64,000 nt of DNA. Source: Burkholderiales bacterium. GTDB taxonomy: Bacteria > Pseudomonadota > Gammaproteobacteria > Burkholderiales > SG8-41. Both the position numbers and the translations under genes were made by a program. The notes under the pieces were generated by a model. It did no database searches. It was not told where the DNA came from and saw nothing but the letters and a program-made list of their open reading frames with translations. Where the stretch lies: positions 1-64,000 of the forward strand of contig JAIENU010000003.1 of NCBI GenBank assembly GCA_019751125.1, given 5' to 3'. This document shows, piece after piece, positions 6,024 to 29,623 of this stretch. Numbering within the stretch: the first letter of the stretch is position 1; each line of letters begins with the position of its first letter.

Positions 6024-7337
6024 CTATGCCTTGCCTATGCGGTGGCGCCAGCTTTCGGCGCGTTGCAGCAGTGCCTCGCGGTCCAGGCCCTTGAGCTGGC
6101 CTGAGGAAACCCGTCGCTCGCCGTGCACCCAGACGTCGCTGACGTGTTCGCGTCCGGCAGCATAGACCAGATGCGATACCGGGTCGTAGCAGGGAGACAG
6201 TTCCAGGGCATCGAGGTTCACTGCGGTGAGATCGGCGAGTTTGCCGGGCACGATGGAGCCGATGCGATCCTGCAGTCCCAGCGCCTTCGCGCCGCCGAGT
6301 GTTGCGGCTTCAAGGGCACGCGCCGCAGGCATGGCTTGTGCCGAGCCGCTGCCGCCTTTGGCGAGTAATGCGGCGAGGCGCATTTCGGAAAACAGGTCGA
6401 GGCGGTTGTTGCTGGCGGTGCCGTCGGTGCCGATGCCGATATTGACGCCGGCGGCGAGCAGTTCGGCCACGGGTGCGATGCCGCTGGCCAGCTTCAGGTT
6501 GGAGGCCGGGCAATGTGCGACCGAGCAGCCGTGGCGGGCGAGCAGGCCGATTTCTTCACTGTTCAGATGCACCGCATGCACGGCGATCAGCGACGGGCCA
6601 AGCAGGCCCAGGCGCTCCAGCCTTGCCAGCGGCCGCATGCCGTGGGTTTTCTGGCTATCGCTGACCTCACCGGCGGTTTCGTGGACATGGATGTGCACCG
6701 GCAGGTCGAGCTCGCCGGCGTAGGTGGCAATTTGCGCGAAGGTGGTGTCGGAGACGGTGAACGGCGCATGCGGCGCGAGGCAGAAGGACAGCAGCGGCTC
6801 GCCGCGCAGGCGGTCATGCAGTTCTATGCCCTTGCTCAGATAGTCCTGGGCATCGTTGGCATAGGCCGAGCGGAATTCGATGGCGATGATGCCGAGAGCC
6901 GCTCGCATGCCCGCGCGCAGGGCAGCACGGGCCGCGGCTTCAGGGAAGAAATACATGTCATTGAAGCAGGTGATGCCGCCGCGCAGCATCTCGGCGCAGG
7001 CGAGCAGGGTGCCGTCGTGCACGAATTCGTCGGAAACCACGCGGGCCTCGGCCGGCCAGATGTGGTTTTGCAGCCAGTCCATCAGCGGCAGGTCGTCCGC
7101 AACGCCGCGCATCAGGCTCATCGCGGCATGGGTGTGCAGGTTGATCAGGCCCGGAATCAGCGCATGGGTGGGCAGCGCGACACGGTTTGCATCCGGATAA
7201 CGCGCCCAGGCTTCAGCCTGCGGCAATACGGCGACGATCCGTTCATCGCTGATGACGACAGCATGATCGGCCAGCACGGCGCCGGCCGGTTCCACCGGGA
7301 TGACCCATTGCGGCTCGATGATCGTGACTGAAGGCAT
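6024..7337 (-). CDS. mtaD: 5-methylthioadenosine/S-adenosylhomocysteine deaminase family amidohydrolase
   Basis: A 437-residue metal-dependent amidohydrolase of the TRZ/ATZ group; members near ubiG deaminate methylthioadenosine or S-adenosylhomocysteine. Visible metal and active-site elements are HTHAAMSLMRG (first His pair), HVHETAGEV, HAVHLNSEEI and the catalytic Asp in GIGTDGTASNN. The ATG at 7337 (MPSVTIIEPQW) was preferred over an upstream ATG that adds a basic MNRRKRNRA peptide and would start inside the ompA-distal leader. S-adenosylhomocysteine is the by-product of the downstream UbiG methylation, which fits the operon. The exact substrate is inferred from the family. Confidence 0.85.
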   Translation of the reverse strand: MPSVTIIEPQWVIPVEPAGAVLADHAVVISDERIVAVLPQAEAWARYPDANRVALPTHALIPGLINLHTHAAMSLMRGVADDLPLMDWLQNHIWPAEARVVSDEFVHDGTLLACAEMLRGGITCFNDMYFFPEAAARAALRAGMRAALGIIAIEFRSAYANDAQDYLSKGIELHDRLRGEPLLSFCLAPHAPFTVSDTTFAQIATYAGELDLPVHIHVHETAGEVSDSQKTHGMRPLARLERLGLLGPSLIAVHAVHLNSEEIGLLARHGCSVAHCPASNLKLASGIAPVAELLAAGVNIGIGTDGTASNNRLDLFSEMRLAALLAKGGSGSAQAMPAARALEAATLGGAKALGLQDRIGSIVPGKLADLTAVNLDALELSPCYDPVSHLVYAAGREHVSDVWVHGERRVSSGQLKGLDREALLQRAESWRHRIGKA

Positions 7338-29284: not shown

Positions 29285-29405
29285 GGAGAGTTGGCAGAGC
29301 GGTTGAAGGCACCGGTCTTGGCGCGCGGGGGCAGCGCACCAGCGAGGCTAACCGGCCGAAAGGCCGGTTAAGCGCCGAAGGCGTGGCCGGAGCTAAAACC
29401 GGCAG
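29285..29405 (+). pseudogene. Broken tRNA-Ser copy interrupted in the anticodon loop
   Basis: Positions 29285-29320 repeat the first 36 nt of the adjacent tRNA-Ser(UGA) with one difference (GAAGGC for GAATGC). The copy stops after CTTG in the anticodon loop, is interrupted by 74 nt, resumes at 29395 with AAAACCGGCAG (the 3' anticodon stem), and then diverges. The variable arm, T arm and acceptor 3' strand are missing, so no mature tRNA can form from this copy alone. The 3'-complete gene starts 19 nt further on. Confidence 0.8.
29321..29394 (+). other. 74-nt GC-rich insertion in the tRNA-Ser copy
   Basis: The inserted segment contains a strong hairpin, GCTAACCGGCC / GGCCGGTTAAGC with a GAAA tetraloop and a one-base bulge, and a smaller CGCC-GAA-GGCG hairpin. 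It replaces nothing: the sequences on its two sides join to give the uninterrupted anticodon loop of the next tRNA. I see no group I intron core sequences, no ORF and no target duplication. Confidence 0.65.
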
Positions 29406-29424
29406 CTGTAATGATCAGATACAC

Positions 29425-29514
29425 GGAGAGTTGGCAGAGCGGTTGAATGCACCGGTCTTGAAAACCGGCAGGGCCTCACGGTCCTCGTGAGTTCGAATCT
29501 CACACTCTCCGCCA
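29425..29514 (+). tRNA. tRNA-Ser (anticodon UGA)
   Basis: A 90-nt class II tRNA: acceptor stem GGAGAGT / ACTCTCC, D arm GCAGAGCGG, anticodon stem CCGGT / ACCGG with loop CTTGAAA (anticodon TGA), a long variable arm (CCTCACGGTCCTCGTGAG region), GTTCGAATC T arm and encoded GCCA end. Confidence 0.95.
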
Positions 29515-29623
29515 TTTATTTAAAACTAAATAGAATCAAATGGTTATCTGATTCTATCGAGACTTGGGCAGGCCGCCATTCAGCGTTAACATCAACGCTT
29601 CCGATACCCGCGAGGTGTGGCGC

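Follow-up and report, generated by a model that had tools for sequence, protein, structure and literature searches.

The 74-nt segment that splits a partial copy of tRNA-Ser(UGA) in this Burkholderiales genome very probably represents, judging from sequence comparison, a non-autonomous mobile element of that order, and it belongs to what is apparently a widespread and undescribed family of very small mobile hairpin elements. Precise empty and filled sites within one genome argue for a non-autonomous mobile element and against a group I intron or a tRNA-derived RNA. In genome G093, a multi-copy MITE reads GAG/ACAT where the site is empty (L177, L178 and L180; here and below the slash marks the insertion point) and GAG, then AAAACGAG...GGAACC, then ACAT where it is filled (L175, L176 and L179), the filled copies harbouring a 65-nt element and no target duplication. 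Across the family, the insertion point lies precisely 5' to a short run of A (AAAA, ACAA or AACA), and tRNA anticodon loops and the ends of essential genes are the targets hit repeatedly, a complete end usually lying beside or inside the element.

In the window, by which we mean the whole stretch of 64,000 nucleotides that was analysed, the locus comprises from 5' to 3' a 36-nt copy of the tRNA-Ser(UGA) 5' half, the 74-nt insert, AAAACCGGCAG, a 19-nt spacer and the complete tRNA-Ser(UGA) (Table 1). The initial annotation had described a duplicated 5' half with a single change, a 74-nt interruption of its anticodon loop and an 11-nt continuation into the 3' anticodon loop and stem, all of which our comparison bears out; the second-best match to the tRNA-Ser 5' half anywhere in the window reaches 24/36 only. 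It was also right that the 3' half is missing from the split copy, which ends after the anticodon stem, and that a group I core is absent, Rfam giving no match. Its GAAA-capped hairpin is present as well, with 9 continuous pairs (TAACCGGCC/GGCCGGTTA) instead of the 11 bp announced.

Table 1. Features of the split tRNA-Ser(UGA) locus, in positions of the window.
Feature	Positions	Strand	Evidence
tRNA-Ser(UGA) 5'-half copy (acceptor 5' strand, D arm, anticodon 5' stem, CTTG)	29285-29320	+	35/36 identical to 29425-29460
74-nt segment, very probably a mobile element, between G and A of the anticodon	29321-29394	+	46/47 identity of the joined copy to the tRNA once removed in silico; covariance model R2
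H1, variable first hairpin, degenerate here, usual AMAA start lost	29321-29337	+	insert fold
Core conserved across the family, with the AAAA flank	29340-29398	+	R2: 54.2 bits, E=5.4e-11, 64 kb
H2: TAACCGGCC-GAAA-GGCCGGTTA	29349-29370	+	covariation, 36 relatives; 96.2% of cells paired
H3: GCGCC-GAA-GGCGT	29372-29384	+	99.3% of cells paired; both-side changes in all four outer pairs among relatives
H4: GGC-CGGA-GCT, right end of the element	29385-29394	+	almost invariant across the family
AAAACCGGCAG: target A-run and 3' anticodon stem strand of the split copy	29395-29405	+	identical to tRNA positions 37-47
Spacer between split copy and complete tRNA	29406-29424	+	sequence inspection
Complete tRNA-Ser(UGA)	29425-29514	+	ARAGORN; Rfam RF00005, 59.3 bits

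The insertion point falls between the second and third anticodon bases (UG/A), and the loop is targeted for its run of A and not because tRNA introns occur there. The inserted unit would best be read as the 74-nt element followed by AAAACCGGCAG, the spacer and a new tRNA 5' half; since the unit brings this new 5' half, the native 3' half retains a working tRNA. The sequence upstream of the split copy looks like the native tRNA leader, resembling by eye what precedes the unbroken tRNA of G001. Among the origins that had been put forward, the invasion of a duplicated gene by a small hairpin element comes close, and the scar left by an integrated element holds in essence, as copy, insert and spacer act as one inserted unit that leaves the tRNA intact; a tRNA-derived RNA finds no support because the same insert is also met at protein-gene ends. 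Having lost the AMAA start of H1, the copy of the window is probably immobile on its own. Two side observations concern tRNA calls in the window: ARAGORN predicts a 96-nt tRNA-Arg on the minus strand at 7219-7314, which has no Rfam support and resembles coding DNA and is thus probably a false call, and the complete tRNA-Ser gives, when 29410-29560 is searched, a sub-threshold match to Rfam RF02223 (sX4), whose consensus reads like a tRNA-Ser, so that this family may be a mis-filed tRNA family.

A search of the insert against relatives found it in the genus and in other genera, and its conserved right part used as query also turned up in copies of other genes. The tRNA-Ser arrangement recurs in at least 7 other genomes of the genus with 82-88% identity, which excludes both chance and the assembly artefact that had been envisaged, and in more diverged form in two other genera. 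Several genomes hold tandem repeats of 2-4 units, as illustrated by G010, with three units and one partial, and by G067, from another genus of the family, with two; remnants of a second unit persist in G005, G014 and G018, solely the right part of the unit is kept before the tRNA in G002, G003, G006 and G011, and no recognisable core is found at the tRNA-Ser locus of G001 and G009. The spacer has diverged among genomes and is near-identical among the tandem units of one genome. The copies of the genus look vertically inherited at one locus, a point against the mobile reading; the element has long been retained there with compensatory changes, and the H1 that is degenerate in the window reads GCGCAC...GTGCGC in relatives of the genus. 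Retention and occasional amplification of the unit are presumably due to the fact that the tRNA is intact and the element merely lengthens its leader.

The consensus of the family starts with A(A/C)AA and the variable H1, in the loop of which a gene end may lie, and continues with YGGCGNAGGCTAAC, H2, GTTAAG, H3 and GGC CGRA GCC before the A(A/C)AA of the host. The core thus consists of the three conserved hairpins H2, H3 and H4, with invariant motifs GGCT...GTTAA...GGCC, and its end ...GCC directly abuts A(A/C)AA. A covariance model built from 36 elements with the window's own family left out (R2) retrieved the copy of the 64-kb window (54.2 bits, E=5.4e-11) and no other credible match. Among these 36 relatives, 96.8% of cells are paired, and 89 cells show a double change against 26 in shuffled alignments (0 of 500 shuffles were as high) and at most 23 in slid controls. 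The wobble pairs of H2 comprise 8 G.T and 0 A.C, which would favour the strand as written here, be it DNA or RNA; a few C.A pairs in H4 of the larger alignment reduce this to a hint. Another model of the core (R1), used for the order-wide count, gave hits in 107 of the 399 Burkholderiales genomes sampled; the complete genome G116 reached the maximum of 48 copies, and G093 had 31. The core was found in no order besides Burkholderiales in a 369-genome sample of the class, and in one genome of another order (G998) in a phylum-wide sample. No Rfam family matches the element above its gathering score, relaxed thresholds returning just tRNA, the tRNA-like sX4 model and chance matches; no consensus-like element was found in the plasmids and phages searched, and a literature search covering mostly open-access journal articles yielded no description of it. 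Two further observations relate to the surroundings of full copies. In G220, 22-nt mini-derivatives (AAAACGAAGTTTCGGCGNAGCC), made of H1 and the element ends without H2 and H3, adjoin full copies at L182 and L184. In G116, a MITE with termini ACAGGCCGTTGAAAAACG...GTTTTTCAACGGCCTG, present in several genomic copies, contains nested copies of the element, and related multi-copy repeats occur in G093 and G220 (loci L175-L190 across the three genomes).

The target rule is seen at the right flank of 89 distinct copies, where the first base is A in 88 and the tetranucleotides AAAA, ACAA and AACA account for 43, 19 and 14 copies, respectively. The tRNA insertions all lie directly 5' of the first A of an A-run, whatever its position relative to the anticodon: CTC/AAAATCCC in tRNA-Leu(CAA), CTG/AAAATCC in tRNA-Phe, CTCG/AAATC in tRNA-Ser(CGA) and CTGG/AAAG in tRNA-Ser(GGA). 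Wherever such an insertion was read fully (Leu, Ser(UGA), Ser(CGA) and one Ser(GGA)), the split copy keeps the 3' anticodon strand and a few nucleotides, and a complete tRNA comes next. In tRNA-Leu, the left end of the element is ACAA and the host site AAAA, so that the left motif is the element's own and the right one comes from the host. Head-to-tail arrays, of 74-nt units in G102 and of 145-nt units in G093, arise because many copies start with the motif they insert before. At L064 (G017) and L056 (G054), the element is fused to the 3' half of a tRNA-Ser or tRNA-Leu with no recognised complete gene nearby, a fusion that could be a tandem repeat collapsed in assembly.

Protein genes, named here from our own reading of the translations at the element loci, are invaded at the 3' end in ftsW, ilvC, glmS, proB, nrdA, nrdB, serS, an alaC-like gene and rpoD, and at the 5' end in a thiolase gene. 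At gene ends the element usually brings a substitute for the end it cuts off, and the original stays on its right, where it has decayed at L108, L120 and L202. At L105, L101, L074 and L075 the two ends code for almost identical residues through different codons, the two copies at L074 and L075 differing almost solely by synonymous codons, which suggests that the carried end may derive from another genome. In mpl (L124) and in a phage gene (L161) the element is read through in frame; mid-gene copies of this kind were sought via joined open frames, a scan that is unreliable in GC-rich DNA. In tRNAs the additional sequence is found on the right-hand side of the core and in protein genes on the left, so that a single insertion route for both is putative. 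At L232, in the genome of the other order (G998), about 200 nt of the right flank, spanning an intergenic region and the start of the next gene, are duplicated to the left of the copy.

As to how such an element travels, it would move single-stranded and folded, as DNA or RNA of the sense orientation given here, the A-run being cut by an enzyme acting in trans. The arm of H1, which is complementary to the beginning of the element itself, may in addition base-pair with the target, as the guides of IS200/IS605 elements do. IS608 picks its target by a guide tetranucleotide that pairs with the cleavage sites and with the target (PMC5934647). A perfect H1 inverted repeat of at least 6 bp between the arm and the upstream sequence is present in 39 of the 89 copies, compared with 8 of 89 when foreign upstream sequence is substituted. 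It is tempting to propose a new class of mini-elements with their own target guide, in which the H1 arm pairs both with the element start and with the A-run site, and in which an element bearing part of an essential gene homes to that gene in another species and replaces the cut-off end with the help of an enzyme in trans; taken jointly, these suppositions seem to us possible rather than probable. The IS200/IS605 family shares with the present element the fixed tetranucleotide insertion without target duplication, seen here in the AMAA flank and the MITE copies, and the hairpin ends; read on the other strand, our element inserts after TTKT and ends in TTKT. It differs in core sequence and by its four-hairpin layout, it carries host gene ends, its guide pairing is only putative, and several genomes rich in copies are devoid of TnpA, the Y1 transposase/RAYT domain (PF01797) being absent from G093, G428, G220 and G256. 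REP/RAYT systems likewise involve small palindromic non-autonomous elements, GTAG REPs occurring inside ORFs too (PMC3733652, PMC8266576), and many of our copies have G-N-A-G before H2, with a variable second base (GCGAGG in the window); the present element nevertheless exceeds them in size, its conserved hairpins number three, it inserts at a fixed A-run site, and co-occurrence shows no requirement for a cognate RAYT (PF01797). For none of the three candidate mobilisers considered, Y1 transposase, reverse transcriptase and integron integrase, does co-occurrence fit all genomes. The two longest inter-core gaps that were read for an autonomous element (G116 and G452) contain ordinary genes, and, as a further option, the element could have moved in a past host.

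An alternative route is that of a bacterial SINE-like retroposon, in which an RNA ending ...GCC-AAAA would be copied by target-primed reverse transcription at a nick exposing TTTT, leaving flank duplications of variable size. The A-run at the right junction, the wobble pairs favouring the sense strand and the gene-end duplications, whose length varies up to the ~200 nt of L232, are in line with this route, but the filled MITE site lacks any duplication and the reverse transcriptase domain PF00078 is absent from 9 of the 16 copy-bearing genomes tested besides the window's own (G093, G119, G315, G328, G258, G173, G428, G218 and G162), and we hold the retroposon to be unlikely. Movement of a folded strand by an integron integrase, as for gene cassettes, is distinctly unlikely in our view. 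Integron cassettes resemble our elements in their head-to-tail arrays and folded sites, and the integrase model TIGR02249 is found in 70 of 107 carrier genomes versus 78 of 292 non-carriers (OR 5.2, p=3e-12), an association that ignores phylogeny and coexists with the absence of TIGR02249 from 11 of the 39 genomes with at least 4 listed copies. Moreover, the core does not show RYYYAAC/GTTRRRY boxes enclosing a site of attC length and looks unlike the attC-like sites near the integrases (GCCTAAC...GTTAGGC), a scan of the stretches near IntI marked no attC at the cores, the typical unit has no ORF, and the junctions in tRNA-Leu locate the crossover ahead of the second AMAA base instead of at AA^C.

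The possibility that the element is a small intron, removed from RNA by self-splicing or enzymatically so that the host RNA is intact, has in its favour the precise anticodon-loop insertion, a structured core and the nearly all synonymous differences at L074 and L075, as if the right copy were still in use. Group I introns occur in tRNA anticodon loops, and this position is what they share with our element; the latter is, however, too short, occurs outside tRNAs as well, has neither a catalytic core nor both exons (Rfam returned no group I or II match), and in the window lacks the 3' half that a spliced tRNA requires. The replacement ends carried into essential genes would be needless if the element were spliced, the decayed right copies and the in-frame translation through mpl and the phage gene also speak against removal, and we consider splicing very unlikely. 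A host-selected, non-mobile RNA structure in the tRNA-Ser leader would explain the long retention with compensatory changes in the genus and yet is barely plausible, given the dispersal of the same core over unrelated loci, MITEs and phage genes, its absence from the close relatives G001 and G009 and the empty and filled sites, which strongly disfavour it.

The mobile element we favour can be set beside two further systems. Phages and ICEs integrate into tRNA genes at the anticodon loop and restore the tRNA with the sequence they carry, as our element does; with 74 to ~220 nt it has no integrase, and one core serves many targets. Rickettsia palindromic elements, a group mentioned in PMC3733652, are palindromes inserted in coding genes, at times in frame, and so resemble our in-gene copies in another taxon; we know of no A-run rule or gene-end replacement among them. 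If our reading is correct, the known mobile elements would be joined by a widespread family of very small ones that restore the genes they hit, and a class of split tRNA copies and duplicated gene ends in Burkholderiales would be accounted for. It raises the question of what enzyme carries a 65-nt hairpin to anticodon loops and to the ends of genes such as ftsW, rpoD and glmS while the host survives and, if the H1 arm acts as a guide, the family would offer a natural example of target choice by base pairing.
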